Shown: piece by piece, positions 940 to 16,953 of the stretch | How the letters are laid out: every line of letters begins with the position of its first letter | How positions within the stretch are numbered: position 1 is the first letter of the stretch | Virus record (IMG/VR): IMGVR_UViG_3300030085_001711 | Coordinates: 1-41,015 of that record | Source: a virus | Length of the DNA: 41,015 bases | Reading direction: 5' to 3' (one strand) | The notes under the pieces: generated by a model | Told to the model about the DNA's origin: nothing | The model's input: only the letters and a program-made list of their open reading frames with translations | Database searches by the model: none | Position numbers and translations under genes: made by a program

Positions 940-1113
940 TTATGAGTTCTTTATCCCCATGTTTCCTGATGCGTTTCCTACTTTCTTCTTCTCTGCCATA
1001 CCGCCCATGTTGTAAGAGGGCTTCTTCTTCTTCATAGCCATGCCACCGCCATACATTTTGGCTTTTCCGTTAGGCTTCACACTGGCTCCGCAATTTGCAT
1101 ATTTTTTATTCAT
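940..1113 (-). CDS. 57-residue Lys/Gly/Met-rich protein
   Basis: Start chosen at ATG 1113, which overlaps the stop of the upstream gene by 8 bases; a longer upstream frame would run through that gene. The sequence begins MNKKYANCGASVKPNGKAK and consists of Lys clusters between GGG and GGM motifs, a composition seen in small marine phage proteins of unknown role. Very basic, no predicted fold, possibly nucleic-acid binding. A 26-base gap separates it from the next gene downstream. Confidence 0.65.
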   Translation of the reverse strand: MNKKYANCGASVKPNGKAKMYGGGMAMKKKKPSYNMGGMAEKKKVGNASGNMGIKNS

Positions 1114-1363
1114 CAAACTCTTCCTCGATGTAGTACGTGGGTAAAAATCTTTCTGGTTCGGGGGGTATGTCCACAGAGTTCTCTTCAGTAAAGAAATAGG
1201 CTCCGTATCCTTTAAATTTATGTGCCATAGGATTGGCATCTAATTCTCGTTGAGTGATCAGCCCTTCTTCTACAAGCAACCGCCTTATTGTGGGAAAATC
1301 TAGCCTCTGCCCTGTTTTCGCTTCGATTGCGGCTCTGATGTAATATAAGTTAAGGCTTTTCAT
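1106..1363 (-). CDS. 85-residue hypothetical protein
   Basis: Start at ATG 1363, with AGGAG five bases upstream; a GTG two codons earlier lacks correct spacing. The N-terminal part (YYIRAAIEAKTGQRLDFPTI) looks like a small helical DNA- or protein-binding module. The C-terminal half is acidic and aromatic, ending EEEFDE. It is the first gene behind a good predicted promoter (1395-1423). Family not recognised. Confidence 0.7.
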   Translation of the reverse strand: MKSLNLYYIRAAIEAKTGQRLDFPTIRRLLVEEGLITQRELDANPMAHKFKGYGAYFFTEENSVDIPPEPERFLPTYYIEEEFDE

Positions 1364-1394
1364 AGGCACTCCTGCTTGGATGCCTAGTTCCTAC

Positions 1395-1423
1395 ATTATA
1401 CCAATTTCTAGGAGTTAAGGCAA
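1395..1423 (-). promoter_or_regulatory. Sigma70-type promoter, leftward
   Basis: On the minus strand TTGCCT (1423-1418), a 17-base spacer and a perfect TATAAT (1400-1395). It would drive the leftward genes starting at 1363. It faces away from the promoter at 1459-1487, with an operator-like dyad between the two. Confidence 0.7.
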
Positions 1424-1431
1424 TCATTTAA

Positions 1432-1455
1432 TTAAGTGTTAGTTACGACACGTAA
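1432..1455. promoter_or_regulatory. Operator-like dyad between divergent promoters
   Basis: TTAAGTGT, eight bases, ACACGTAA: a 24-bp dyad with one mismatch between arms. The same half-site and N8 spacing recur at 2644-2667 and 11323-11346, each at a predicted promoter. Here it lies 9 bp from the leftward -35 and 4 bp from the rightward -35, an ideal position for one dimeric regulator to control both. Confidence 0.55.
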
Positions 1456-1458
1456 TGA

Positions 1459-1487
1459 TTGACGAAAGTTGATTTAAATGGTACAAT
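1459..1487 (+). promoter_or_regulatory. Sigma70-type promoter, rightward
   Basis: TTGACG (1459-1464), 17-base spacer, TACAAT (1482-1487). It points into a gene-free region that folds strongly, and against the direction of all neighbouring genes, so its likely product is a non-coding RNA starting near 1494. Confidence 0.6.
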
Positions 1488-1493
1488 GAGATT

Positions 1494-1600
1494 GTGGTCG
1501 AGAGGGGTACTATATAGAAGTACCTCTAAGTCACCCTAGTATGGGAGTAGATGTCTTTATAGAAGACTACTCTCAGCCCTCTTACTCCATCCCCCCAATC
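1494..1600 (+). ncRNA. Candidate structured RNA with two tandem hairpins
   Basis: Downstream of the rightward promoter come two stem-loops. The first pairs 1503-1511 with 1519-1527 (9 bp, one G-U, 7-base loop). The second pairs 1543-1549 with 1568-1574 and 1553-1557 with 1563-1567, with a 3-base bulge and loop TATAG. Both loops contain TATAGAAG. A C/U-rich tail follows (1576-1596), including CCCTC, ACTCC and six C. AGAGGG (1502-1507) could instead pair with CCCTCT (1577-1582). No intrinsic terminator is evident, so the 3' end is arbitrary. The hairpins also fold on the minus strand, where they would lie just downstream of the DUF1127 gene. Confidence 0.35.
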
Positions 1601-1638
1601 CGAAAGTAATACTAAGATCAGTAGGTAGGCTACTAGCC

Positions 1639-1791
1639 TCATCTAGCTGTGTCTTTAAATGCAGCCCTGTATATCTCACTGCGACTAACGCCAATGTCGT
1701 TTAGTTCTTGGTCTGTTAAGTTCTGAAGCTGCCAGTAGGCGGCTCTTCTTTCTTGATATTTTATGATTTTATTGAATAGTTTTCTAAGCAT
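1639..1791 (-). CDS. DUF1127 (YjiS-like) small protein
   Basis: 50 residues: a basic start (MLRKLFNKIIKYQERR) followed by AAYWQLQNLTDQELNDIGVS and RSEIYRA, the signature of the DUF1127 family, in which a helix ending in L-x-x-L-x-D-x-x-L-x-D-I-G-x-x-R is diagnostic. Ribosome-binding site AGGAG lies 6 bases upstream of ATG, with an extended -10 promoter just before it. DUF1127 proteins are abundant in Alphaproteobacteria; CcaF1 of Rhodobacter sphaeroides binds RNA and is made from a transcript that also carries the CcsR small RNAs. A phage copy next to structured RNA is therefore notable. Role in this phage unknown; modulation of host RNA turnover is inference. Confidence 0.8.
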   Translation of the reverse strand: MLRKLFNKIIKYQERRAAYWQLQNLTDQELNDIGVSRSEIYRAAFKDTAR

Positions 1792-1816
1792 TATAATCTC
1801 CTATATTCTATAAAAC

Positions 1817-1825
1817 ATTATATCA
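1817..1825 (-). promoter_or_regulatory. Extended -10 promoter for the DUF1127 gene
   Basis: The minus strand reads TGATATAAT at 1825-1817, a perfect TATAAT with the TGn extension. A start near 1810 would leave a leader of about 20 bases before the DUF1127 ATG. No strong -35 is visible, as is allowed for extended -10 promoters. Confidence 0.5.
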
Positions 1826-1866
1826 TCTGGAGAGTTTGCTCAGTAGAGTCATAAGGTGCATAACCG

Positions 1867-2253
1867 CTATGACATCAAATACTTAATGGCTCTTTTTATT
1901 CCTTGTATGTTGTCTCCCAACAAGCCGATTGAGAGATTGCAGTGAGAACAGATCCATCCTCTGAATGTCTCTGTCTCGTAGCAGTGATCGAGGACAAGTT
2001 TATTATCCTTCTTGCCACAGCACTGACACTTATCTGGCTTCGGTGGGGCAGTCTTACGTATCTCATTTACTATTCTAAGATTACGCTTCTGACATTCCTT
2101 GCAGGAAGTACTTCTACATTCCCGATCTCCAGTTGCTCTTCGATATAACCTAAATGCTTCTCTAGGTTTTACCTGCTTGCAGTGTCTGCACTCTATGGCA
2201 TCCTCTGGAAGAGTATCGTCTAACCACCCAAATAAATTAGGTTGGTGGTTCAT
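1867..2253 (-). CDS. Endonuclease VII-type HNH nuclease
   Basis: 128 residues. CxxC pairs at C22/C25, C51/C54 and C76/C79 precede the nuclease motif LVLDHCYETETFRGWICSHC (about 86-105) and then NLSIGLLGDN. This is the His-Me/HNH arrangement of the recombination endonuclease VII family (T4 gp49), with H90 as general base, C102/C105 as zinc ligands and N106. Such enzymes resolve branched DNA and trim replicating phage concatemers before packaging; free-standing homing-like relatives are also common, so packaging versus homing is unresolved. Its start lies inside the end of the upstream gene (17-base overlap), implying coupled translation. Confidence 0.85.
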   Translation of the reverse strand: MNHQPNLFGWLDDTLPEDAIECRHCKQVKPREAFRLYRRATGDRECRSTSCKECQKRNLRIVNEIRKTAPPKPDKCQCCGKKDNKLVLDHCYETETFRGWICSHCNLSIGLLGDNIQGIKRAIKYLMS

Positions 2254-2566
2254 ACGAAGTGTTGAATAAGTCAGCTACTGCGTGAGTACTGGACTCAAGC
2301 TTGTCTGCTACTTCTCGTATCCTTTCAGATTGATGTAGTAAGCCGTTGCTTACCTTATATAACTCCTGATAGTCTCCATCTTCTTCGTGACACTCGATTA
2401 TGTCATTAATGACTTCCTCAAACGGCTGCTCTTTTATTACTGGCTTTTCGTCTAGGTCTATCGATACACTGGTCTGTAATAGAAATTGACCGTCATCGTC
2501 TTCAAATAAATCATTATCGATAAAGAGGGGAACTTCTAAGTTAACGTCCTGTCCGTTATCATTCAC
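2237..2566 (-). CDS. Acidic hypothetical protein
   Basis: 109 residues, rich in Asp and Glu (FEDDDGQF, ECHEEDGDYQE), with a C-terminal helix (about 73-100) containing heptad-spaced hydrophobics. First gene behind a promoter/operator pair at 2626-2667. The acidity could reflect DNA mimicry or partner binding, but no family is recognised and nothing more can be claimed. Confidence 0.6.
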   Translation of the reverse strand: MNDNGQDVNLEVPLFIDNDLFEDDDGQFLLQTSVSIDLDEKPVIKEQPFEEVINDIIECHEEDGDYQELYKVSNGLLHQSERIREVADKLESSTHAVADLFNTSYEPPT

Positions 2567-2625
2567 TTTAGTTGCTCCGATAAGTTTGCTCTATCGAAAT
2601 AACTGGTTACCTGTATTTTTATATT

Positions 2626-2654
2626 ATAGTACCCAACATCTTGTAACGTGTCAA
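2626..2654 (-). promoter_or_regulatory. Sigma70-type promoter overlapping operator
   Basis: Minus strand: consensus TTGACA (2654-2649), 17-base spacer, TACTAT (2631-2626), about 60 bases upstream of the ATG at 2566. A TATAAT in the same stretch is three bases too far from the -35 for normal spacing. The -35 lies inside the dyad 2644-2667. Confidence 0.55.
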
Positions 2655-2667
2655 GCATAACACCTAA
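2644..2667. promoter_or_regulatory. Operator-like dyad over the -35 box
   Basis: TAACGTGT, eight bases, ACACCTAA: the same half-site and spacing as the dyads at 1432 and 11323. Because it covers the -35 of the leftward promoter, a bound protein would be expected to repress. Confidence 0.5.
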
Positions 2668-3097
2668 TATATAGAAACTTTACAGAATATTTCTAGTAGA
2701 AATACGCTAGGGGTCGTTTACGGTTGCCATTTTCCCAAAATATGTCTGGGTTGTATACGACATCGGGGGGGTAGGGGGGTGGCACTCGCCCCCTCTGGAA
2801 AAATTTTTTTAGAAAAAAATAACCAAGAGAAATAGTAAGAAATTCAGTAGGTTAGTAGATAAATTAATCGAACTAATAACCTGACATTAACAGTTCGTGT
2901 CTGGAAAAATGCAGCATCGAGAAAAGAATTATAAAAAAATTAATCAGGTAATTAATCGAAGCTGCAGAAAAATTATCGATAGCTATCTAATTAAGAAAAT
3001 TTTCTACAATTGACGGTTATTTTAGATCGGATAGAAGTTCGAGATTGTATACCTATTTGACCGATTTCCCCAGACGCCAGCCAATTAACAAGGTGTT

Positions 3098-3126
3098 ATG
3101 AGAGCCAATGTAAGAGCCACTGAGTG
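3098..3126. repeat. 29-bp intergenic repeat, copy 1
   Basis: Matches 5235-5263 at 25 of 29 positions (ATGAGAGCCAAT then TAA, ending CCACTGAGTG). Both copies lie just downstream (leftward sense) of a minus-strand terminator and next to an AAGTGT or AAGGTGT half-site. The CACTcAGTG end is itself a small palindrome. Confidence 0.7.
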
Positions 3127-3225
3127 CAGGTAAAGTTTCTGGATATAAATATACCTGAGAAGAGTTTGGCTCATCAGTGACTCTCTCCGTGCCTCTCAGA
3201 CACTATCCTGATCGAGCCGTAGGAC

Positions 3226-3254
3226 ATAAAAAAACCCCACTAAAAGCAGGGTTC
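3226..3254 (-). terminator. Rho-independent terminator, leftward
   Basis: Minus strand: AACCC, a loop of about 11 bases, GGGTT (3253 to 3233), then a run of T (3234-3228). The stem is short (5 bp) but the position directly after the stop of the leftward gene ending at 3282 is right. Confidence 0.6.
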
Positions 3255-3281
3255 TTTAGTTGTTTATCTAAGTACTGGGTC

Positions 3282-3653
3282 TCAGTAATCGTCCTGATCG
3301 CCAGTATTCATATCATGCCAGTGATCGATGTCCTCAGTCTTGATCACATTAAAGCTGCACTCAGGATATTTTCTCCTGAGACTATCGATGTCTACTAGCT
3401 GACCGATCTCAATACAGATATCAGTTCCGCATTCATCGATGCCGATTGCTAGGTGTCGAACAGGGGCGGCAGCCGACACGTTTTTCGCTGCAGAATTATT
3501 CATCTCAGGTAAATAAGACTTTAAAATTTTACGTGGTTCAAATCTCTTTTCTAAAAGCTGCATGAACATTTCTTCAATGGCTGTAAAATCTTTATTGCTC
3601 ACATCCTCCGCAATTTGATCTAAGACAGCATCAATTAATTTCTGTTCAGTCAT
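3282..3653 (-). CDS. 123-residue conserved phage hypothetical
   Basis: The start is placed at ATG 3653 (protein beginning MTEQKLIDAVLDQIAEDVSN), overlapping the previous stop by 8 bases. The N-terminal helical motif (KDFTAIEEMF then LEKR, ILKSYLPE) is familiar from many small marine phage proteins of unknown function. The C-terminal half looks like a small alpha/beta module containing CIEIGQLVDI. Last gene of a leftward cluster, followed by a terminator. Confidence 0.65.
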   Translation of the reverse strand: MTEQKLIDAVLDQIAEDVSNKDFTAIEEMFMQLLEKRFEPRKILKSYLPEMNNSAAKNVSAAAPVRHLAIGIDECGTDICIEIGQLVDIDSLRRKYPECSFNVIKTEDIDHWHDMNTGDQDDY

Positions 3654-3981
3654 CGTCTGCCTCCTCAGTCTCAGGTCTGCAGATGCTGCAGCATGACGTT
3701 CCTGCATATTTCCAAAGGTCTCCTGCAAGGAAATATTTATGCAGGGTATAGCCCTCACAAACCAGTGAAATGTCGTGCAGCTTCTGATCGCATTTTGCCT
3801 CAGCTATTTCTGCAGTTTGTCCGTAGAAATCCCAGTAAGCGATCATGTCTTTTTCATCATCGGTTAACCAACGCAATTTAATTAAAACTGATTTTTTAAA
3901 ACCTGTTCGATGATAGCCTGAGTTAGTTCCGCACCATAGGCGTTTAAATCGCATACCTTCGTCACTGTTAACGTAGCCCAT
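3646..3981 (-). CDS. Cys/Trp-rich hypothetical protein
   Basis: 111 residues starting MGYVNSDEGMRFKRLW, with a cysteine cluster near the end (SCCSICRPE) that may bind metal, and an acidic tail EEADDD. Its ATG overlaps the previous TAA (TAATG), and its end overlaps the next start. Not recognised. Confidence 0.6.
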   Translation of the reverse strand: MGYVNSDEGMRFKRLWCGTNSGYHRTGFKKSVLIKLRWLTDDEKDMIAYWDFYGQTAEIAEAKCDQKLHDISLVCEGYTLHKYFLAGDLWKYAGTSCCSICRPETEEADDD

Positions 3982-4166
3982 TATAAATCCTCCTCAAAAG
4001 CTTCACCTGAGATAGCCTGAGCAATCAATTTATCGGCTCTCCACATATGATGTCTAACAGGTTGCGACTGATTAGCCTGAGCCTGAAACTGTCGGATATC
4101 AGACGAGCTAAAAGATAGCTCGTCCGACTGATCAAAATACTGAGATAATGTACTGTTAAAATCCAT
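3981..4166 (-). CDS. 61-residue Ser/Gln-rich hypothetical
   Basis: The start is set at ATG 4166 because a strong GGGAGGT lies seven bases upstream; the longer frame would run into the upstream gene. The protein is rich in Ser, Gln and Asp and ends EEDL. It follows the DUF2786 gene by 4 bases. No family recognised. Confidence 0.6.
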   Translation of the reverse strand: MDFNSTLSQYFDQSDELSFSSSDIRQFQAQANQSQPVRHHMWRADKLIAQAISGEAFEEDL

Positions 4167-4170
4167 GACA

Positions 4171-4908
4171 CTACCTCCCGATATAGCCAGAGACTGAACC
4201 ACCAGTGCTAACACCTTTGTTCAGACCAACCCTGTTGGCTGCAGCTCTTCCTGCTCTCGATGCAGAACCATTACCAGTAGATCGGCCACCACTGGTTCGG
4301 CCTCTTCCCCAGACCTTGCTCCTGTAGTCATCGAGGGCTTTCTCTGCGACTACTACCAGTGCAGTACCATCGGAAGCTTTATTGGCTTGGACAGTGTCCT
4401 GCTTCTGGTTCTCTTGATACATTTTCATTAGTCGAGAGTTGAGCCTGTATCCCATCGAGTTCATAAAGTTAGATCGAACTCGTCGAGGATGCATTCCCTG
4501 ATAGTTGACCTCTTCGTCATACTCCCAAGAATTTTTATAATTCAGAAATTCTAGTTCCATCGCTGACATCAAGGTACTGATCAAATAGATGGCATTATCG
4601 ACGCAGTGTCTTTGACCCAGTAATTTTAGATCGCCACCATCTCCCTGTATTCTGACTTCGCAGAAAAACTGCAGACCGTACAAAGCACACCACACTGGGT
4701 GTCTTACCTTGTTACCAATTGTCATGCGGTCTTGTGTATATTCGGTAAGCTCGATGTCTAGCTCAGTCAGGGTCAGATTATATTTATTCTGCAAAATCTG
4801 CATTGCTTTAGCTGCAGCCATAGCCTCAGCCTCAGTACAACCATTTTCTACAGTGCGTTCTGAAAAAGCTTTCAGTTTTTTTAGGATTTCTTTTCGATCA
4901 ATAGACAT
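4171..4908 (-). CDS. DUF2786-type protein with Gly/Arg/Ser tail
   Basis: 245 residues. Residues about 6-45 (ILKKLKAFSERT, then EAEAMAAAKAMQIL, NKYNLTL) match the DUF2786 pattern of two helices with an AxxMA-type core. The middle part is a mixed domain containing HPVWCALYGLQFFCEV, and the last ~45 residues are a low-complexity Gly/Arg/Ser tail (about 200-245). DUF2786 occurs in phage and plasmid proteins of unknown role, sometimes next to metallopeptidase-like domains; no metal-binding motif is visible here. The basic tail suggests nucleic-acid contact (inference). Confidence 0.65.
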   Translation of the reverse strand: MSIDRKEILKKLKAFSERTVENGCTEAEAMAAAKAMQILQNKYNLTLTELDIELTEYTQDRMTIGNKVRHPVWCALYGLQFFCEVRIQGDGGDLKLLGQRHCVDNAIYLISTLMSAMELEFLNYKNSWEYDEEVNYQGMHPRRVRSNFMNSMGYRLNSRLMKMYQENQKQDTVQANKASDGTALVVVAEKALDDYRSKVWGRGRTSGGRSTGNGSASRAGRAAANRVGLNKGVSTGGSVSGYIGR

Positions 4909-4910
4909 CT

Positions 4911-5123
4911 TTAAACCTCCACAAATACTAGAGTTGATGGTTTCAAATATACCTCATTACCAGTATCCCAATTAGTGCAGGTAAAATTAGCCGCACCGAA
5001 AAAGTCTTTTGGATTGTAATGATTTCTTACAAAATATGATTTTGCAGAAGGCTTTCTTTTAAACAGATCGCCTTGCTTAACTTTTCGTAATTCTACTTGT
5101 TTAAAAATTTCTGAAATTGACAT
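4911..5123 (-). CDS. 70-residue conserved phage hypothetical
   Basis: Start placed at ATG 5123 (protein beginning MSISEIFKQVELRKV), with GAGAGG nine bases upstream; a longer GTG frame begins inside the leader motif. The pattern FKRKPSAKSYFVRNHYN, then FTCTNWDTGNEVYLKP, resembles a recurring small phage family of all-beta character. Function unknown. First gene after a terminator, repeat and leader block. Confidence 0.65.
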   Translation of the reverse strand: MSISEIFKQVELRKVKQGDLFKRKPSAKSYFVRNHYNPKDFFGAANFTCTNWDTGNEVYLKPSTLVFVEV

Positions 5124-5138
5124 GGTTAGTGTCCTCTC

Positions 5139-5148
5139 TAGTTGGTTA
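5139..5148 (-). promoter_or_regulatory. Leader motif TAACCAACTA upstream of 5123 start
   Basis: The minus strand reads TAACCAACTAGAGAGGA immediately before the ribosome-binding site. The same ten bases lie before the starts at 6860, 8081 and 8408. It is the exact complement of a stretch in the predicted RNA at 21731-21797. Confidence 0.6.
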
Positions 5149-5206
5149 ATGAGAAGCACAATTGCCCCTCACCCAAATTTATGCAGGAATTTTATTGTTA
5201 ATGCAA

Positions 5207-5222
5207 ACACTTTGTTAAGTGT
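5207..5222. promoter_or_regulatory. AAGTGT dyad (inverted arrangement)
   Basis: ACACTTTGTTAAGTGT, a 6-bp inverted repeat around TGTT. It resembles 8442-8455 (ACACCTTATTAAGTGT apart from one-base register) and carries the half-site of the 24-bp dyads, but facing outward. It lies in the leader region of the gene starting at 5123. Confidence 0.4.
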
Positions 5223-5234
5223 CGATGCTAGCCC

Positions 5235-5263
5235 ATGAGAGCCAATATAAAGCCCACTGAGTG
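5235..5263. repeat. 29-bp intergenic repeat, copy 2
   Basis: Second copy of the element at 3098-3126, differing at four positions in the middle. The surrounding 5124-5375 stretch has no gene and consists of the leader motif, the dyad, this repeat and the terminator. Confidence 0.7.
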
Positions 5264-5330
5264 ACTTTAGCTGTTTTGCATACTATTACTCATAAAAAGC
5301 CGTTCCCCCCACTCTCTGGAATTTGGACAT

Positions 5331-5358
5331 AAAAAAAGGGCAACCGAAGCTGCCCCTC
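5331..5358 (-). terminator. Rho-independent terminator, leftward
   Basis: Minus strand: GGGCA-GC-TTCG-GT-TGCCC followed by seven T. Stable stem with a TTCG tetraloop, placed 17 bases after the stop at 5376. Confidence 0.88.
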
Positions 5359-5375
5359 TTTAATCGATGTAAATT

Positions 5376-5624
5376 TTATAGATCGTGATCTAATGCCTGA
5401 ATAAATTCTAAAAGTTCAGGTAATAAATTTGCGGTAGGTGTAGACTTCCGAATTTTACCCTGCCTCAAAATTTTCTCATGCACTGGATTACCGTCATATA
5501 ACCACCAATCATTTTCGAGGCGATCGATCACAAGATTTCTTACTCGCGTATGCCCCGATTTAATAGTGCAGCCATTTGGTTCAATTCCGCAGACATCGAT
5601 TGAATAGCCGAGAATTACTTTCAT
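5376..5624 (-). CDS. 82-residue hypothetical protein
   Basis: Begins MKVILGYSIDVCGIEPNGC; probably a small beta-rich fold (NDWWLYDG) with a C-terminal helix (LLPELLEFIQALDHDL). ATGA overlap with the upstream gene; last gene before a strong terminator. Not recognised. Confidence 0.6.
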   Translation of the reverse strand: MKVILGYSIDVCGIEPNGCTIKSGHTRVRNLVIDRLENDWWLYDGNPVHEKILRQGKIRKSTPTANLLPELLEFIQALDHDL

Positions 5625-5863
5625 TGAACAGCCTTCCAGTTTTTAGAATTTTTATCCCAGAACTCGATTGCTGCATTATGCACGACTGATTGATAGATGG
5701 CTAACTCAGTAGAGTTTAGGCAGCTTAACGCTAGAGGGTTACTGCGTACATGAGTAAGTATTTTTTTCATGCATTTTAAACTCTCGCGTCTGTTACCCAA
5801 GCTATCGATGTAATCATTAAGCAGGTTGATAATCGCATTTTGTTTTGGATGCTGCTCAATCAT
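5621..5863 (-). CDS. 80-residue helical hypothetical
   Basis: All-helical composition beginning MIEQHPKQNAIINLLNDYID with a central CMKKILTHVRSNPLALSCL. The start overlaps the end of the upstream gene by 8 bases and its stop overlaps the next start (ATGA). Not recognised. Confidence 0.6.
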   Translation of the reverse strand: MIEQHPKQNAIINLLNDYIDSLGNRRESLKCMKKILTHVRSNPLALSCLNSTELAIYQSVVHNAAIEFWDKNSKNWKAVQ

Positions 5864-6032
5864 TTAACGGCTCCACACTGACACACTCATAATCTTTTGC
5901 GCTATCGTGTCCGATGTCGAACCTTAGCTCGTCATATGCTACGGCTCGCGCATTATTTGGATCATCGACCTCGACTTCAGTTACCCATCGATGGGTGTCA
6001 TATGGTGCAAATTTTACGATAAATCTAGGCAT
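5856..6032 (-). CDS. 58-residue hypothetical
   Basis: Start at ATG 6032 with GGAGGT seven bases upstream; a GTG three codons earlier would leave no room for the binding site. Begins MPRFIVKFAPYDTHRWVTEV, a likely beta-strand pair, then an acidic helix. It overlaps the preceding gene by 8 bases. Function unknown. Confidence 0.6.
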   Translation of the reverse strand: MPRFIVKFAPYDTHRWVTEVEVDDPNNARAVAYDELRFDIGHDSAKDYECVSVEPLND

Positions 6033-6525
6033 CTGATGCACCTCCGAATGTTCTACTGATATTAATAATCAGACAGCCATTACTCCCGAAGGTCAGGGCT
6101 ACCTTATCGCCTACCTTCGCGTATTTTTTCAGACCTGATATCGAGATGCGTTTATCACCTCGCGCAGTCTTATAGAATACGACCCGACAGTTATCCTCAG
6201 TCCATTTATTTGACTGAACTCTTACCACCTCGCAGACATCCTCATTAGTGGTAATGAGATGTTTACCTTCGAGCATTACTCGATGACCGTTTCCGAGAGT
6301 TGAATAATCAATGCCATCACAAAAGTTGATGTCTACAGGTGGCACGTTCTTTAGACCTTGCCAGTATTGAACCTCGATCTCGCCTAAGCTTTTGGCAAAC
6401 TTAACCACTGAGATATTCGCATCGATGATGCATTTATCGAGCATGGTTTTTGTCAGTGTAATCTCCCCGACATTTTCACTATCGACATCTAATATATCGA
6501 AAAATTCTTTTACTGATAATTTCAT
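6025..6525 (-). CDS. 166-residue hypothetical protein
   Basis: Begins MKLSVKEFFDILDVDSENVG. Mixed alpha/beta N-terminal part; the C-terminal region (CRVVFYKTARGDKRISISG, then KVGDKVALTFGSNGCLIINI) looks like a small beta-barrel. ATGA overlap with the gene upstream. No conserved catalytic pattern is visible and the family is not recognised. Confidence 0.6.
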   Translation of the reverse strand: MKLSVKEFFDILDVDSENVGEITLTKTMLDKCIIDANISVVKFAKSLGEIEVQYWQGLKNVPPVDINFCDGIDYSTLGNGHRVMLEGKHLITTNEDVCEVVRVQSNKWTEDNCRVVFYKTARGDKRISISGLKKYAKVGDKVALTFGSNGCLIINISRTFGGASDA

Positions 6526-6860
6526 GCCGACACCTCAAAATTCTGGGTAATATCCAGTTCTGAATAATCGACCCAATTAGGTTTACTGTGGGGCGGTAAA
6601 TCTTTCAGTACTGCCCTGATTAGATGAGGCAGGGTAAGATCACCTATTCTCTCCCAAGACTGCTTCGAGTTCGACCATCGAAGCTTATCTGCGAACTCTA
6701 ATACATCGCAGGGTATCTTACGGTCATGTGTTGCAGCTTCCATGCGGATTAATCGATCCAGAGTAATCGCATTTTGTCTGCGGATTTTAGTCTCGCGTTT
6801 TTTAAGAGCTTTAATTCTGCGAGATGTTTTTACTCGCTCTTTTGTCATTAAATCTGACAT
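6522..6860 (-). CDS. Basic N-terminus hypothetical
   Basis: 112 residues. The first 40 are rich in Lys/Arg (KTSRRIKALKKRETKIRRQN) and helical, suggesting nucleic-acid binding; the rest is a compact domain containing LRWSNSKQSWERIG. The start is preceded by AGAAGGA and the leader motif. Function unknown. Confidence 0.6.
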   Translation of the reverse strand: MSDLMTKERVKTSRRIKALKKRETKIRRQNAITLDRLIRMEAATHDRKIPCDVLEFADKLRWSNSKQSWERIGDLTLPHLIRAVLKDLPPHSKPNWVDYSELDITQNFEVSA

Positions 6861-6872
6861 AGTTAGTTCCTT

Positions 6873-6983
6873 CTAGTTGGTTACCAGTTCTGCGAACCAG
6901 TAGGTTAATAAAATTATTATCAGGACAAAAATTAATGCCCTGATAACTGCTTCAAGAAATTGTAGGATACGTTCCTCAATCAT
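6873..6983 (-). CDS. 36-residue single-pass membrane peptide
   Basis: ATG at 6981-6983 lies inside the end of the upstream gene, and the frame ends in TAG at 6873-6875. The peptide begins MIEERILQFLEAVIRALIFV, continues hydrophobic (LIIILLTYWF) and ends AELVTN, a clear transmembrane helix with an acidic N-terminus. It fills an otherwise empty 115-base gap. Too short for similarity evidence; overlap and hydropathy are the support. Confidence 0.45.
   Translation of the reverse strand: MIEERILQFLEAVIRALIFVLIIILLTYWFAELVTN
6874..6883 (-). promoter_or_regulatory. Leader motif TAACCAACTA upstream of 6860 start
   Basis: The minus strand reads TAACCAACTAGAAGGAA directly at the ribosome-binding site; these 17 bases are identical before the start at 8408. 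The motif also forms the last codons and stop of the small upstream ORF (6873-6983). Confidence 0.65.
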
Positions 6984-7224
6984 TGGCTACCTCTTGAACT
7001 GAACGTAGCTTTCTGTCCTCTTTAATCTGATGGCAGAGTTCTATTGCTGCGCTATCGATTACTGAGAAAACATCGTTAGTAGGCCAATATTCAAAAGGTT
7101 GCCATACGTTGTCTTCCATAAACTTAGTAAGCTTACGATCCGACCACTTATGCCAATTGTCAGGAAAATTCTTACATAAGTAATGCCCTGACATAATTTG
7201 GATAGCTTTATTACGCTGCATCAT
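6976..7224 (-). CDS. 82-residue hypothetical protein
   Basis: Starts with two adjacent ATGs at 7224 and 7221, overlapping the preceding TAA. Aromatic-rich (FPDNWHKWSDRKL, VWQPFEYWP) with a C-terminal helix. Coupled to the DUF932 gene. Not recognised. Confidence 0.6.
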   Translation of the reverse strand: MMQRNKAIQIMSGHYLCKNFPDNWHKWSDRKLTKFMEDNVWQPFEYWPTNDVFSVIDSAAIELCHQIKEDRKLRSVQEVAND

Positions 7225-8081
7225 TAAGCCGCCAATAAAAATCTATCGTCGGACATCCACTTATTCACCTCAAGTTCTCGCTTGAACATATTGGCAGCTT
7301 GGGTGTCTTCCCGATTAGCCGTGTTACGTGGCTCAAAGCCATTACCTAGCGTGTGAGATGCATAATTAGTGAATGCAGACATCAAACTGAACTTATTGTG
7401 TCCTCTTACTTCGGCTTCCTGCATATATAACTCAAACATTTTCTTTTGCTTCTGTTCGGAAGGTATAATGTCCTCAAGTAATTTCTGGACAGTGGTCTCT
7501 CTCATATTAGTCTGAGCAAATACTTTGAGCCGTTCACTTTCTAAATAGAAATCGTTTTTAGCCCTGCGTAATTCTGAGATAAAATCCTGTAGTCTAAACC
7601 CAGAAGTATTTTTCCTGCGAACCACTGAGTATTCACCTGATACACAACCATTAGTGCAGAAAGTATCGATAGATCCAAACAACGTAACATTAGCTGCAGA
7701 ACCATTAACGCCATGTATGCCGATAATTCTCTGCCTTAACTCTGTCTTATGTCCACTGTCAGTCTCGATCTCAGTCTTAATAGATGGGAAGGTAATATCT
7801 GCCAGTGCAAAACCACCTTTATGACCTGACTTAAATCTGACCTGAGCATTCAAGATATCGTCACTATCCATATTCTCAGTTATCTGATCCCAGAGACCAC
7901 TGAAAAATGTCTGATGGTCTACGCAGTTGAACTTAGTACTAACGTGACCGATAGCCTCATCAGTAAGCGGATTAATAACAAAGTTGTGACCGTCCATTCT
8001 GGATGGTACGAAAACTGGTTTAAAATCCAAATGCTGCGGTAGTTCGATTTGGCGGTTTATTGAAGTAAAATCTAATGGCAT
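7224..8081 (-). CDS. DUF932 family protein
   Basis: 285 residues with the layout of DUF932 phage/plasmid proteins: a start region mentioning a saved template (HNFVINPLTDEAIGHVSTKF, then NCVDHQ), a GGFALADI-type strand, GIHGVNGSAANVTLFGS, and FCTNGCVSG, which corresponds to the family's conserved C-T-N motif. A helical C-terminal half follows. The family is widespread on phages and plasmids, often in early regions; its biochemical role is not established. Preceded by two copies of the leader motif and an AAAGGG ribosome-binding site. Confidence 0.78.
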   Translation of the reverse strand: MPLDFTSINRQIELPQHLDFKPVFVPSRMDGHNFVINPLTDEAIGHVSTKFNCVDHQTFFSGLWDQITENMDSDDILNAQVRFKSGHKGGFALADITFPSIKTEIETDSGHKTELRQRIIGIHGVNGSAANVTLFGSIDTFCTNGCVSGEYSVVRRKNTSGFRLQDFISELRRAKNDFYLESERLKVFAQTNMRETTVQKLLEDIIPSEQKQKKMFELYMQEAEVRGHNKFSLMSAFTNYASHTLGNGFEPRNTANREDTQAANMFKRELEVNKWMSDDRFLLAA

Positions 8082-8098
8082 ATTATGCCCTTTCTTTT

Positions 8099-8124
8099 TA
8101 GTTGGTTAAAATTAAAGTTGGTTA
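8099..8124 (-). promoter_or_regulatory. Two leader motifs upstream of 8081 start
   Basis: Two copies of the motif on the minus strand: TAACCAACT at 8124-8116 and TAACCAACTA at 8108-8099, the second abutting the AAAGAAAGGG ribosome-binding site. The 117-base gap to the previous gene also holds a start-less open frame encoding a hydrophobic peptide (KWLLILIKPFSVLFVWLYLL) that ends in TAA at the first motif. Confidence 0.55.
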
Positions 8125-8198
8125 CCCTTCGAACAGGGTGAGTAGATAAAGCCAGACAAACAGAACGCTGAACGGCTTTATCAAGATTAAAAGCCACT

Positions 8199-8408
8199 TT
8201 ATTTGACACCTATTATAATGTCGTTTTTCATAGTGACTTCAGCGAACCACTCACGACCTATATTTGTCATGTGTGGTCTATTGCATACTACTATAGTTCC
8301 ATTGCTTTGGTACTGATTACCAAATAAACTGGTCTCAATATAATTTAACTTTTTACCAATATTCTCTTTGAGAGATTTCTTGGTTGGATAGACTGCAATC
8401 ATAGTCAT
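8199..8408 (-). CDS. 69-residue hypothetical protein
   Basis: Begins MTMIAVYPTKKSLKENIGKK; the second ATG (8402) is also possible. The pattern SLFGNQYQSNGTIVV and EWFAEVTMKNDIIIGVK suggests a small beta-rich protein of a type seen in marine phages. First gene of the leftward early block, preceded by the leader motif and a palindrome. Confidence 0.6.
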   Translation of the reverse strand: MTMIAVYPTKKSLKENIGKKLNYIETSLFGNQYQSNGTIVVCNRPHMTNIGREWFAEVTMKNDIIIGVK

Positions 8409-8423
8409 ATGATCAATTCCTTC

Positions 8424-8433
8424 TAGTTGGTTA
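8424..8433 (-). promoter_or_regulatory. Leader motif TAACCAACTA upstream of 8408 start
   Basis: The minus strand reads TAACCAACTAGAAGGAA, overlapping the ribosome-binding site AGAAGGA, then eight bases to the ATG. Identical over 17 bases to the leader at 6874-6883. Confidence 0.65.
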
Positions 8434-8436
8434 CCT

Positions 8437-8456
8437 CGACACCTTATTAAGTGTCG
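8437..8456. promoter_or_regulatory. Palindrome CGACAC-N8-GTGTCG
   Basis: Perfect 6-bp inverted repeat with an 8-bp spacer (CTTATTAA), directly upstream of the leader motif of the 8408 gene. Shares ACAC, TTAAGTGT features with 5207-5222. Likely an operator for the leftward early transcript; the bound protein is unknown. Confidence 0.45.
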
Positions 8457-8459
8457 TAC

Positions 8460-8629
8460 CCTGCCTTACACTACTTATCTGAATAAATCAAATTTATTTT
8501 TTTGAGTAAAAATTTTTCAAAATAATTTTTTTTAAATTTTTATTTTTCCAAAAATTTTTTTCTAATTTATTTTTTTGTTTCTTCTCAGGACGTTAAATGA
8601 TGTACAACTGTAGTTAAGACTGTGGATAA
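8460..8629. other. Candidate replication origin (AT block plus DnaA box)
   Basis: About 8475-8580 is almost pure A/T with long T and A runs, the lowest-GC stretch in the window, as expected of a duplex-unwinding element. It is followed by TGTGGATAA (8621-8629), a perfect DnaA box on the minus strand. The block sits where leftward and rightward genes diverge. The rest of 8409-8753 holds only a palindrome, the leader motif and a TTAGGTGTTGACT half-site/-35 element (8667-8679). Only one DnaA box is seen, so host DnaA use is uncertain. Confidence 0.4.
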
Positions 8630-8753
8630 ATCAATCTTACCCTCTCGCGCTCGCGCTAGTGGTTAGTTAGGTGTTGACTTGAGTAAAAAATTCAGCCAAA
8701 GATTTTTGATTACTTCAAGAGTTTCAAATCAATAGGGAAAGGTAGGGCAGAGT

Positions 8754-8954
8754 TTGGATACTATTATAGACACCAACCAAGCCCATGAACTTAGCGAAAT
8801 AATACAACAGACGATAGAATTAGTTAATAAAGACAAGAAAGAATTAGTGGTAGTCTATATTATAGATTTCAATATCTTCGAAGCCGTTCCTGCCAATTGG
8901 TGTGATCAGAAGTTTGAGGGATGGAAAGAAATCGTAAGGGTCTGTGCAGGGTAG
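8754..8954 (+). CDS. Small hypothetical protein with TTG start
   Basis: 66 residues from TTG at 8754 (MDTIIDTNQAHELSEIIQQ); no in-frame ATG is available. A weak AAAGGTAGGGCAGAG precedes it. The sequence has a helix followed by LVVVYIIDFN and an aromatic C-terminus. It lies alone between an AT-rich region and a strong terminator, so it is a monocistronic unit. It could also be the coding-like part of a short RNA. Not recognised. Confidence 0.45.
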   Translation: MDTIIDTNQAHELSEIIQQTIELVNKDKKELVVVYIIDFNIFEAVPANWCDQKFEGWKEIVRVCAG

Positions 8955-8982
8955 CCATAGTTTTTTGGGAACAAAATGAAAA

Positions 8983-9008
8983 GGCTCACTTCGGTGGGTC
9001 TTTTTTTT
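8983..9008 (+). terminator. Rho-independent terminator, rightward
   Basis: GGCTCAC-TTCG-GTGGGTC followed by eight T; 7-bp stem with two G-U pairs and a TTCG loop. It isolates the small ORF from the integrase unit. Confidence 0.9.
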
Positions 9009-9010
9009 AT

Positions 9011-9040
9011 TTGACACTGTAGTAGGTGGTGGTGTAAGCA
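9011..9040 (+). promoter_or_regulatory. Probable promoter of the integrase gene
   Basis: Consensus TTGACA (9011-9016), 18-base spacer, weak TAAGCA (9035-9040). The GACAC and GGTGG words in the spacer resemble the operator half-sites found elsewhere. The leader to the ATG is about 55 bases. Confidence 0.4.
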
Positions 9041-9078
9041 CCTAACTGTTAATACCAACTCTTAACAGTTTGTTTATG

Positions 9079-9101
9079 TAACCAACCGAAAGAACCAACT
9101 A
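9079..9101 (+). promoter_or_regulatory. Leader motifs before the integrase start
   Basis: TAACCAAC (9079-9086) and AACCAACTA (9093-9101) precede ATG 9103 with no better ribosome-binding site than GAAAGAA. Same motif as in the leftward leaders but on the plus strand, so it follows the gene's sense rather than genome orientation. Confidence 0.5.
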
Positions 9102-9102
9102 A

Positions 9103-10407
9103 ATGAAAAAAGCTCCTTATGTTAGGATAGAAAAAAGAAAGAATGGTAATCATTACTTTGTTCGTCCTACTGAAAAGTTATTATCCATTTTCCCTGACCT
9201 AGAAATAGTACCTTTTGACACTTTAACGGAAGCCAATGCTCTGGGTTATGCATGGCAGCGTAAACTTGATACACACCTAAGTGGTGGCATTGATACACAT
9301 ACTTTGGAAGATAAATACAGTGTCAGATCCCTAATAAACGAGTGGAAAGCATCTCCTGCCTATCGAGATAATGACCTCTCTACGATGAGAAGTTACGCTA
9401 GTCACATTGAATACTGCATGAACTTCAAATTGAAAGGTGAGTCAGTACGCTTCGATGAGATGAAAGCTACAGACGTTACATATGAACATGCCAAGTATTT
9501 ATTTAATGACATTGAAGATGACGTAAGTACTCACAAAGCAGTCACTACTTTTATGCGCCTACGCGCAGCTTGGAATGAGGGTATCAAATGTGGCTTGGCT
9601 AACGTCAATCCTTTTGCCTTGGTCAAACTACCAGAATTAGAAGCCAGAGCCGTTCTCTGGAGTGAAGACATGGTAACCCAGGCTATCGAACAGTGTGACG
9701 CAGTAGGTAGATACTCAATGGGTACTATGATTACCCTCTGCTACCACTGGTGTCAGCGTCCAGTAGATATTCGCAGACTTCGATGGCGTGATGTCGAAAC
9801 TGGGATAGGGTACTTCAGACAGAAGAAGACTAAAGCTAGAATGGCTATCCCCCTTACGCAGGGTATTAAAGATAGATTAGCACTGCATGAAGAATTGTTA
9901 GGTGACGAGAGATACTTCGATGACATCATCTTGCGAGAAGAGCCTACGCAGAAGCCTTACACAGTCGATAGGGTATCAGTTGTATTCAAAAAGGTAGTCG
10001 TGAAGCCGCTGAAGTGGACTATGGTTCAAGATGGTGACCGTCTAGATGACAACGGAGAGCCTCTACTTACCTACCCAAGGATCGGAGACCTCAGACGTAC
10101 TGGTACTACTCACGCTAGTAGATCAGGCTGTACAGACAGAGAGCTAATGGCTCTCACTGGTCATAAAAATCCTTCCATGCTCGTTATCTATGCAAGGGCA
10201 GGGGAAATAGAAGCAACTAACGCAATGAATAAGAGAGGTTTACTCACTGCAATGGGTCACAATGGTGGTCCAGTTATGGAAGATCGGGTGGGTTGGAAAG
10301 CAGCCGCACAACAGATTGAAACTGGTCAGCTACCTGACAAAGCCCTGATCGAGGCGCAGAACGAAATCAAACGACTAAAGCAACAATTAAAGAAAATCAG
10401 GAATTAA
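9103..10407 (+). CDS. int: Tyrosine site-specific integrase
   Basis: 434 residues. An N-terminal arm-binding part and SAM-like core-binding region (about 70-180) precede the catalytic domain. Visible catalytic residues: R219 in WCQRPVDIRRL, a Lys in the QKKTKARMAIPL strand (about 241-244), R331 in IGDLRRTGTTH, H354 in LTGHKNPS and nucleophile Y363 in MLVIYARA. The usual box II His is Gly (G328), a substitution known in a subset of phage integrases. A short helical C-terminal tail (about 412-434) could be a coiled coil. It integrates phage DNA at a host tRNA; the matching attP core lies at 11200-11240, beyond thyX. Next gene starts 2 bases later. Confidence 0.93.
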   Translation: MKKAPYVRIEKRKNGNHYFVRPTEKLLSIFPDLEIVPFDTLTEANALGYAWQRKLDTHLSGGIDTHTLEDKYSVRSLINEWKASPAYRDNDLSTMRSYASHIEYCMNFKLKGESVRFDEMKATDVTYEHAKYLFNDIEDDVSTHKAVTTFMRLRAAWNEGIKCGLANVNPFALVKLPELEARAVLWSEDMVTQAIEQCDAVGRYSMGTMITLCYHWCQRPVDIRRLRWRDVETGIGYFRQKKTKARMAIPLTQGIKDRLALHEELLGDERYFDDIILREEPTQKPYTVDRVSVVFKKVVVKPLKWTMVQDGDRLDDNGEPLLTYPRIGDLRRTGTTHASRSGCTDRELMALTGHKNPSMLVIYARAGEIEATNAMNKRGLLTAMGHNGGPVMEDRVGWKAAAQQIETGQLPDKALIEAQNEIKRLKQQLKKIRN

Positions 10408-10408
10408 T

Positions 10409-11092
10409 ATGATATCAGCAAAACTAATTGACCACATGGGCAGTGACCTCTCAGTTGTGAATGCAGCTAGAGTATCCTTCAACAAGAAATCTGAAGCTCA
10501 CGGATACACAAAAATAGATGAAGGTCCATCAATTCCCATCTTGCGAGATAAAGATAAGAAGTTGATTGCTTACCTAGCCTCACACAAGCACCTTTCACCC
10601 TTCGGACACTGTTTTGCTACTTTTTACGTGAAAGCACCAATCTTTGTAGCTAGGCAACTGGTCAAACACGAATATCTGAGGCTGAATGAGATCTCGCGCA
10701 GGTATGTAAAATCAGAACCAGAGCTATTTTTTCCCGATTGGTGGCGAGAGAGTGTCGATGATAAGAAACAGGGTTCGGGTGGTAGGTTGGATGATGACAG
10801 AGCTAATGAAGCTATTGTCACTTCGATGCAACAAACTCAAGACGCAGTCTACAAGTATAACAAACTACTGAAGCTAGGTGTATGCGAGGAACAGGCTCGT
10901 ATGATCCTGCCACAAAATATGATCACAGAGTTCTACTGGTCTGGCAGTTTAGATGCATTTGCTAAGATGTGTAAGTTACGTAGGTCTGACGATGCACAAG
11001 CAGAGACTAAACGAATCGCCATAGATATCCACTGTCATATGACAAATATCTACCCACATTCGTGGGAAGCTCTGCAGAAAGCGTTACATTAA
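10409..11092 (+). CDS. thyX: Flavin-dependent thymidylate synthase ThyX
   Basis: 227 residues. Converts dUMP to dTMP using methylene-tetrahydrofolate, FAD and NADPH. The family signature appears as RQLVKHEYLRLNEISRRY (82-99): the usual R-H-R-x7-S reads K86-H87-E88-x7-S96, with N93, E94, R98 and Y99 retained. HLSPFGHCFATFYVKAP (61-77) is the conserved substrate-binding region and MILPQNMITEFYWSGS the C-terminal part. HMO-2011-type phages are known to carry thyX. It sits in one unit with int and is closed by a terminator. The altered first and third motif residues leave catalytic competence to be verified. Confidence 0.92.
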   Translation: MISAKLIDHMGSDLSVVNAARVSFNKKSEAHGYTKIDEGPSIPILRDKDKKLIAYLASHKHLSPFGHCFATFYVKAPIFVARQLVKHEYLRLNEISRRYVKSEPELFFPDWWRESVDDKKQGSGGRLDDDRANEAIVTSMQQTQDAVYKYNKLLKLGVCEEQARMILPQNMITEFYWSGSLDAFAKMCKLRRSDDAQAETKRIAIDIHCHMTNIYPHSWEALQKALH

Positions 11093-11107
11093 TGAGTCGA
11101 GTGAATA

Positions 11108-11160
11108 AAAAACCTGCAGAAACCTGCACGTGCAGATATACGAAAAATCTGCAGGTTTTT
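11108..11160. terminator. Long-stem terminator after thyX, usable both ways
   Basis: AAAAACCTGCAG (11108-11119) pairs perfectly with CTGCAGGTTTTT (11149-11160), giving a 12-bp stem with flanking A and T tracts suitable in either direction. The loop itself holds the palindrome CTGCACGTGCAG. It separates the int-thyX unit from attP. Confidence 0.8.
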
Positions 11161-11199
11161 ACTGCAAAAATCAGAAATAATCATTTAAAATCAGATAGT

Positions 11200-11240
11200 T
11201 GGCTCCGACGGTAGGGATCGAACCTACGACCAATTGATTA
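11200..11240 (-). other. attP: attP core: 3' end of a tRNA gene
   Basis: Read on the minus strand, the 41 bases give the 3' anticodon arm, variable loop TGGTC, a full T arm (GTAGG, TTCGATC, CCTAC), the 3' acceptor strand CGTCGGA, discriminator G and encoded CCA. The 5' half of a tRNA is absent: upstream bases depart from a tRNA at the anticodon loop (A at position 33), so this is not a functional gene but the identity block tRNA-targeting phages use to restore the host tRNA. Anticodon-proximal CUAA and a G discriminator fit tRNA-Arg(UCU); tRNA-Lys is an alternative. Confidence 0.82.
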
Positions 11241-11322
11241 GTTGGTTATCGTTTAAAATCAATGGGTTAGAAATTCTAGGTGTTAAAAACTGTTAATGAA
11301 AATAGTCAGTAGTTCGCTACAG

Positions 11323-11346
11323 TTAAGTGTTGACACTAACACTTAT
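11323..11346. promoter_or_regulatory. Operator-like dyad over promoter
   Basis: TTAAGTGT, eight bases, ACACTTAT, the best of the three 24-bp dyads (7 of 8 arm positions symmetric). It covers the -35 box TTGACA, so it is placed for repression of the rightward replication operon. Confidence 0.6.
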
Positions 11347-11357
11347 GCTTGTATCCT
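11330..11357 (+). promoter_or_regulatory. Sigma70-type promoter of the replication operon
   Basis: Consensus TTGACA (11330-11335), 16-base spacer, TATCCT (11352-11357), within 60 bases of the first gene. Transcription would begin near 11364, at the foot of a stable hairpin. Confidence 0.6.
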
Positions 11358-12381: not shown

Positions 12382-12708
12382 ATGTATAGAAGTTCAAGCA
12401 CAAAGTATATACGAAGTGAGAACCCTGTTTATAGATGGGGTTATCTAATGAAATCCACATCATCAAGGATTAGAAAGTTTAAAATGATGACTCGGATAGG
12501 AGTTCCGCAGTCTGATTGGGTTGGAGGTCGAGCATGGGGTAGCCCCGTAGTTCCCCTAGCCCCACCTAGACAAAGTGATTCTAGATTATCATTAAACATA
12601 GATACGTACCTGACTTACGTAGATAAAAAACAACCAGTCGAAGCTGATAGTACCGACTATAAAAATCAAGGAATATCAAATGCAACTACGTGCAATAATG
12701 CTTGTTGA
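12382..12708 (+). CDS. Basic hypothetical protein
   Basis: 108 residues beginning two bases after the primase stop. The N-terminal half is rich in Ser, Arg and Lys (SSSTKYIRSE, SSRIRKFKMM), then comes a Gly/Pro/Trp segment, and a polar C-terminus. Low-complexity character and lack of a recognised family make it less certain than its neighbours, but spacing and the downstream overlap favour a real gene. Confidence 0.5.
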   Translation: MYRSSSTKYIRSENPVYRWGYLMKSTSSRIRKFKMMTRIGVPQSDWVGGRAWGSPVVPLAPPRQSDSRLSLNIDTYLTYVDKKQPVEADSTDYKNQGISNATTCNNAC

Positions 12709-12880
12709 TTTAGAAGTAGATAATTTTCAAGAAGCTGCAGCAATGGAAGCTAAATTACAAGAAAGCTTAGATACATTAGTAAGTCTAAATAAGAATATTA
12801 GTTATACTGCCTTAGACATCAAAGAGCGAAGAGGCAATGCCAAGCCTGACATTAGTAAGATGAAATTTAGACAAAATTAA
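12680..12880 (+). CDS. 66-residue conserved phage protein
   Basis: Begins MQLRAIMLVDLEVDNFQEAA and ends with a basic motif ERRGNAKPDISKMKFR, a pattern that recurs in small replication-region proteins of marine phages (recognised from memory). Predicted strand-helix-strand. Overlaps the previous gene by 29 bases; a strong terminator follows 30 bases later. Role unknown. Confidence 0.65.
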   Translation: MQLRAIMLVDLEVDNFQEAAAMEAKLQESLDTLVSLNKNISYTALDIKERRGNAKPDISKMKFRQN

Positions 12881-14427: not shown

Positions 14428-14720
14428 TGGATAAAATTGTATTAAGACTGCGTGGATCTTACAGCGTTAGCTGTGAGCCAGATAATTATACGATAGTGGC
14501 TAGGAGAGGCTCTCTGGTTGGTAAGATGGCTAGAGATCTAATGGATCAAGGATTTAATCCTAAAGCCTCAGTAGAAGTAATGCGTGACGATACGCTCTGC
14601 TTTGAGCCGATGACACTAGAAGCTTGGTCAAAAATCAACTTAGTAGAAAACGACACTGACTTTAAGTTTACTAAATATAAACCTTACCCTCTTGCAAACA
14701 AAGAGGTGAGTGATGACTAA
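14427..14720 (+). CDS. 97-residue hypothetical upstream of polymerase
   Basis: Begins MDKIVLRLRGSYSVSCEPDN, with a predicted beta-rich N-terminus and a Lys-rich end (FKFTKYKPYP). Start overlaps the previous stop; its last codons overlap the polymerase start. The position suggests a replication accessory protein, but no motif confirms it. Confidence 0.6.
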   Translation: MDKIVLRLRGSYSVSCEPDNYTIVARRGSLVGKMARDLMDQGFNPKASVEVMRDDTLCFEPMTLEAWSKINLVENDTDFKFTKYKPYPLANKEVSDD

Positions 14721-16902: not shown

Positions 16903-16927
16903 TCAACACCCTACAAAGTGGTAGAAT
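16899..16927 (+). promoter_or_regulatory. Sigma70-type promoter
   Basis: TTGATC (16899-16904), 17-base spacer, TAGAAT (16922-16927), beginning at the polA stop and about 27 bases before the next ATG. The spacer holds ACACCCTACAAAGTGG, similar to the AAGTGT dyads. Likely drives the nuclease and nucleotide-metabolism genes. Confidence 0.6.
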
Positions 16928-16953
16928 GAACATCTAACCTTAAAGGAAATATA

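Follow-up and report, generated by a model that had tools for sequence, protein, structure and literature searches.

The 41,015-nucleotide stretch of viral DNA analyzed here (the window) holds about ten dyads of the form TTARGTGT-N8-ACACYTAA, which probably serve as operators of a single phage-encoded transcription regulator that would bind as a dimer and would most likely act as a repressor. The dyads are genuine and beyond chance, and they form a bigger network than an earlier note on this DNA had reported. That note had proposed that one dimeric regulator coordinates several phage promoters. Its idea that a single binding activity serves the early leftward promoters, the late ones and the rightward ones for replication is well supported by the same element at the orthologous promoters of relatives, while it is the symmetry of the sites that suggests a dimer.

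Based on polymerase identity and gene order, the window is a fragment of a marine HMO-2011-type podovirus of subgroup III (CRP-3, CRP-212, CRP-235, and CRP-738). The DNA polymerase encoded at 14710-16902 shares 70% identity with the enzyme of Roseobacter phage CRP-738, aligned over 99% of its length, and 51-56% with those of CRP-235, CRP-3, and CRP-212; the comparisons covered 99-100% of the length (51-70% identity overall), and the gene order is syntenic. The part with the capsid, portal, and terminase genes is missing from the window and present in the 53-kb relative G001, which belongs to the closest relatives, the IMG/VR viral contigs L001-L005 (integrase identity 88-94%). At the DNA level, the first 20 kb of the window had no match in phage records, and a polymerase-profile scan of the genome collection returned distant polymerases only and no prophage. 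The ribonucleotide reductase gene lies at 19975-21660 on the plus strand. The enzyme of G001 is 81-89% identical to those of CRP-212 and CRP-3 and about 22-24% identical to those of CRP-738 and CRP-235, and since this pattern is unlike that of the polymerase, the gene was likely exchanged.

The three equally spaced dyads described previously (1432, 2644, and 11323) are present, with one, three, and one mismatches to the perfect consensus. A search for the perfect dyad with up to three mismatches returned four matches in the window versus 0.44 expected, a number reached in none of 100 shuffles. Lone half-sites were not enriched in the window (49 found, 57 expected), so that only the paired arrangement is significant. 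When a degenerate half-site ([TC]TA[AG][GC]TGT, up to three mismatches) was used, spacing 8 gave 16 matches in the window, 10 of them in noncoding DNA, which makes up 7.6% of the window; the remaining outward spacings gave 0-6 noncoding matches. A binomial calculation gives about 3e-8 for 10 of 16, for a half-site that had been relaxed after the sites had been seen. The enriched gaps were only 8 (outward) and 0 (inward), with almost nothing at other gaps.

All other previously listed sites also exist in the sequence (Table 1), some with a changed description. Among the presumed half-sites at 5215, 8667, and 12949, the last proves to be a full dyad that has decayed, its counterpart in a near-identical relative being clean, and among the inverted forms at 5207, 8437, and 16905, the box given as 8437 has to be corrected to 8439-8454. 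Sites absent from the earlier list are the two integrase dyads (9022 and 9042) and weaker ones at 1408, 5191, 8423, 16890, and 16914. The outer half-site at 8423 is doubtful, as it overlaps the leader motif TAGTTGGTTA and may be a mere part of it. A recurrent leader motif close to TAACCAACTAGAAGGA is found just upstream of several gene starts (5137, 6867, 8092, 8417, and 9086).

Table 1. Putative operator sites, predicted promoters and selected small genes in the window.
Feature	Position	Strand	Remarks
87-aa protein gene, candidate regulator	1106-1369	-	in 12/12 subgroup-III genomes, absent from HMO-2011 and CRP-207
Predicted leftward promoter TTGCCT-17-TATAAT	1395-1423	-	precedes 87-aa gene, late side; kept in homologous loci
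Weak dyad CTAGGAGT-N8-TCATTTAA	1408-1431		over -35 of leftward promoter; next dyad 24 bp on
Dyad TTAAGTGT-N8-ACACGTAA	1432-1455		between divergent -35s, TTGCCT (-) and TTGACG (+); retained in L001, L003, L004, G001
Predicted rightward promoter TTGACG-17-TACAAT	1459-1487	+	no ORF directly 3'
DUF1127 small protein gene	1639-1791	-	
Dyad TAACGTGT-N8-ACACCTAA	2644-2667		covers -35 of predicted leftward promoter 2654-2626, TTGACA-17-TACTAT, which precedes 111-aa/endonuclease VII genes
Array TTTATTGT-N8-ACACTTTG-TTAAGTGT	5191-5222		inverted box 5207-5222; over predicted leftward promoter 5218-5189
Inverted box ACACCTTATTAAGTGT	8439-8454		upstream of leftward 69-aa gene
Half-site TTAGGTGT joined to -35-like TTGACT	8667-8679	+	partner half-site not evident; kept in G001 and L004
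Two overlapping dyads, 9022-9045 and 9042-9065	9022-9065		integrase promoter region
Dyad TTAAGTGT-N8-ACACTTAT	11323-11346		over -35 of predicted rightward promoter 11330-11357, TTGACA-16-TATCCT (+), before primase region
66-aa protein gene, second candidate	12680-12880	+	phylogenetic profile only
Decayed dyad TTAGGTGT-N8-CCATATAA	12949-12972		before helicase gene
Weak dyads 16890 and 16914 with inverted box 16906-16921	16890-16937		predicted ssb-like promoter 16899-16927, box in spacer

One type of half-site makes up both the inverted form ACACYTARYTARGTGT (inward gap 0) and the 24-bp dyad (outward gap 8), in opposite arrangements. Successive half-sites face opposite ways and are separated by 0 and 8 bp in turn, which results in a period of 24 bp. 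Joined forms occur in the window at 1408/1432, 5191/5207/5215, and 16890/16906/16914, and in relatives at 25956/25972 of CRP-212 and as CTAATTGT-N8-GCACCTAATTAAGTGT before the primase gene of G008. Among the 156 flanks of 78 distinct inverted boxes, 31 had a third half-site at gap 8, versus 1-10 at other gaps, although many of these loci are homologous and thus not independent. The half-site of the regulator would be the 8-bp TTARGTGT, and arrays with a 24-bp period could hold adjacent dimers.

AT-rich promoters might yield TTAA-rich near-palindromes by mere chance, a reading favored by the lack of enrichment of the single half-site in the window and by an enumeration of exact 5-mer dyads in nine genomes, where the motif was too degenerate to rank among the top noncoding dyads. 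Nevertheless, we give chance almost no credence in view of the spacing specificity, the conserved footprint described below, and the distribution of the motif in relatives. Exact cores CACYTARYTAR were noncoding in 23 of 26 cases in 11 subgroup-III genomes versus 11% expected (p about 2e-19). Counts among the relatives are not independent, as many of these represent homologous loci. In addition, part of the motif refinement relied on sequences later counted. Four permuted control patterns showed no noncoding bias in the same comparison. An equal frequency of the dyad in coding DNA, which the earlier note had named as evidence against its proposal, was therefore not observed in the relatives. 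Since the consensus was drawn from the same phage group, the evidence lies in the coding/noncoding comparison and not in the raw count. An unbiased 8-mer enrichment placed TAACTAAG, CTAATTAA, CTTAATTA, ACCTAACT, and ACACCTAA near -10 words at the top.

Relatives whose DNA polymerases are about 51-72% identical also have the element at orthologous promoters. In CRP-212 (about 51%), sites precede the integrase, primase, helicase, ssb-like, capsid, and acyltransferase genes. Some orthologous promoters have no recognizable box in some relatives, and CRP-738 and CRP-235 have few. An exact dyad scan of viral contigs identified 25 stretches, of which six belong to HMO-like contigs and the others to unrelated phages. 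The unrelated 82-kb viral contig L107 contains three noncoding copies (1385, 1637, and 4025) of a similar dyad, TTAGGTGTAACAAATTACACCTAA, possibly another set of operators.

As the earlier note had stated, each of the dyads at 1432, 2644, and 11323 lies in or beside a sigma70-type promoter, with those at 11323 and 2644 on the -35 element; the promoters are predictions from sequence only. Predicted promoters coincide with sites at 1395-1487, 2626-2654, 5189-5218, 11330-11357, and 16899-16927. The arrays appear to overlap the -35 element, the -35/-10 spacer, or the start of most recognizable early, replication, integrase, and late promoters, and a protein bound there would consequently exclude the host sigma70 RNA polymerase. 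At the ssb-like promoter, spacer positions 5-14 (CACYTAAYTA) are mostly conserved among 14 non-redundant relatives, positions 1-4 and 15-17 less so. A sigma70 spacer by itself gives no reason for conservation, and the box is the conserved part. In most relatives the box at the primase promoter abuts the -35 element (CACYTAATTARGTGTTGACA) with its center near -43. The spacer of the acyltransferase promoter is filled by a box in CRP-212 (TTGCTA-ACACTTAGTTAGGTGTC-TATAAT) and in G009.

The center of the primase box is close to the position of a class II activator, as would be expected if the phage encoded an activator or a dual regulator, e.g., for an early-to-late switch, instead of a repressor. 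However, the box centers are spread between about -43 and +9 with respect to the inferred start, the box elsewhere fills an optimal 17-bp spacer, and most of the boxed promoters, with their good -35 and -10 hexamers, should need no activator, which makes this reading unlikely. Since such a range of centers is rarely tolerated by activators and is tolerated by steric repression, it would fit repression.

Two noncoding regions near these promoters were also observed. The region 1459-1640 (plus strand) starts with a rightward promoter without an ORF, which is the conserved divergent partner of the promoter of the 87-aa gene in homologous loci; it could possibly give rise to a noncoding RNA pointing at the DUF1127 gene, and its predicted fold showed no extra stability relative to shuffles (z -1.06). 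In addition, blocks of the noncoding stretch of about 700 bp at 2567-3281 are common to CRP-738 and CRP-212, at the same place.

Since no phage regulator gene was recognized in the scan of about half of the window's proteins, the binding protein might belong to the host, with the phages carrying its sites to follow host physiology. However, neither CRP-207, from another HMO-2011 subgroup, nor the cobavirus CRP-5 has a noncoding core, and both share the host strain FZCC0040 with CRP-3, CRP-212, and CRP-235; we therefore consider a host regulator improbable. As the motif tracks the phage lineage and is absent from phages of other lineages infecting the same host, the binding protein is probably encoded by the phage.

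The previous statement that the window holds no recognizable repressor gene agrees with our scans against family libraries, which found no CI/Cro-type helix-turn-helix repressor among the scanned half of the proteins, the genome lying partly outside the window. Proteins of 87, 66, and 148 aa are encoded in all subgroup-III genomes tested and not in HMO-2011 or CRP-207; a 111-aa protein has the same profile and is missing only from G001, a genome apparently incomplete at that place. Judging from a hydrophobic stretch at its C-terminus, the 148-aa protein appears to be membrane-bound. The gene of the 87-aa protein adjoins the strongest divergent array. Its structural model is of low confidence (pLDDT 67) and matched no known fold, with Foldseek hits at E 4 or worse and VIA-align Z scores of at most 3.6. 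Pfam gave only weak hints, to HTH_33 for the homologue of CRP-235 (E 0.16) and to DUF2087 (E 0.11). The 66-aa protein yielded a confident model (pLDDT 88) with one helix between extended segments, which had no match in the PDB. It is a speculative possibility that a protein of the 87-aa or 66-aa type, without a recognizable DNA-binding domain, is a master repressor of most promoters including the late ones, binding adjacently on the arrays of alternating half-sites, and that operator drift between relatives would then distinguish immunity types in this abundant group of ocean phages. Two other proteins were rejected as regulators. In CRP-212 and CRP-3, the DUF1127 gene is immediately preceded by an inverted box of its own. 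However, a homologue is present in CRP-207, where noncoding boxes are absent, and none was found in G009 despite the perfect box of this genome. The helix-turn-helix protein gp55 of CRP-212 is common only to CRP-212 and CRP-3.

CRP-3 integrates at the 3' end of a host tRNA-Met gene (PMC6918029). Given the integration of this relative, a lysogeny-type repressor would be the likeliest role of the regulator, and together with the tRNA-like segments described here it leads us to expect a lysogeny repressor, although none is annotated. We thus infer a role in lysogeny. A tRNA-like 3' end (T arm and acceptor) is located at 11199-11240 on the minus strand, preceding the 11323 dyad by about 85 bp, and is probably the attP. 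Most relatives have the same kind of segment at the corresponding place. In CRP-3 and CRP-212 a tRNA-Met-like 3' end, read by eye, lies upstream of the primase gene, and that of the window differs from it. Rfam returned nothing at curated thresholds, the tRNA-like segment scoring only 13.5 bits.

The presence of one array within about 100 bp of this segment, and of a DnaA-box-like word in another, AT-rich region, would also be in line with a function of the repeats in replication, partition, or recombination, as iteron-like or integrase/excisionase sites. Against this, the sites hold fixed places relative to -35 and -10 elements at promoters throughout the genome, and those of the capsid, acyltransferase, ssb-like, and helicase genes are far from attP, where arm-type sites would cluster; such a function is thus very improbable. 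The region in question (8480-8630) comprises an AT-rich stretch followed by the DnaA-box-like TGTGGATAA (8621-8629), is conserved in G001 and L004, and may possibly be a replication origin, with one DnaA box being within chance.

A repressor acting on sites of this kind would resemble several known systems. In cluster A mycobacteriophages (L5/Bxb1), the repressor sites are dispersed, asymmetric, 13 bp long, mostly located off promoters, and oriented with transcription (PMC6550527). The present sites share with them the many dispersed copies of one regulator site in a temperate phage genome and the sequence drift between related phages, but they are inverted repeats in noncoding DNA that overlap predicted promoters, number about ten per genome, and come without a recognized repressor gene. 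In the Streptomyces phage phiC31, conserved inverted repeats overlap many phage promoters and are bound by one repressor, whose gene has been identified; the sites are mainly at early promoters. Palindromic sites overlapping many promoters are likewise found here, although sequence and lineage differ. The lambda OL and OR operators are tandem dyads about 24 bp apart, centre to centre, over sigma70 promoters in two clusters. Tandem dyads 24 bp apart over promoters, suited to adjacent dimers, are present at 1408/1432, 5191/5215, and 16890/16914; unlike the two lambda clusters, they are scattered over most promoters. No CI/Cro-type gene was recognized in the roughly half of the proteins that were scanned. 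NrdR boxes are 16-bp palindromes with ACAC...GTGT ends, which precede ribonucleotide reductase genes in pairs with a spacing of about 31-32 bp. The inverted box is a 16-bp palindrome with the same ends, but its center differs, the tandem spacing is 24 bp, and no site precedes the ribonucleotide reductase gene. The system would work like those of cluster A, phiC31, and lambda but is filed with none of them.

Such networks are already known from other temperate phages. The genome papers searched do not mention promoters, and we found no description of an operator network of this kind for this abundant ocean phage group. The conserved operator provides a sequence handle for finding the regulator and for predicting immunity groups among metagenomic relatives, and it raises the question of how lysogeny is controlled without a recognizable repressor gene.
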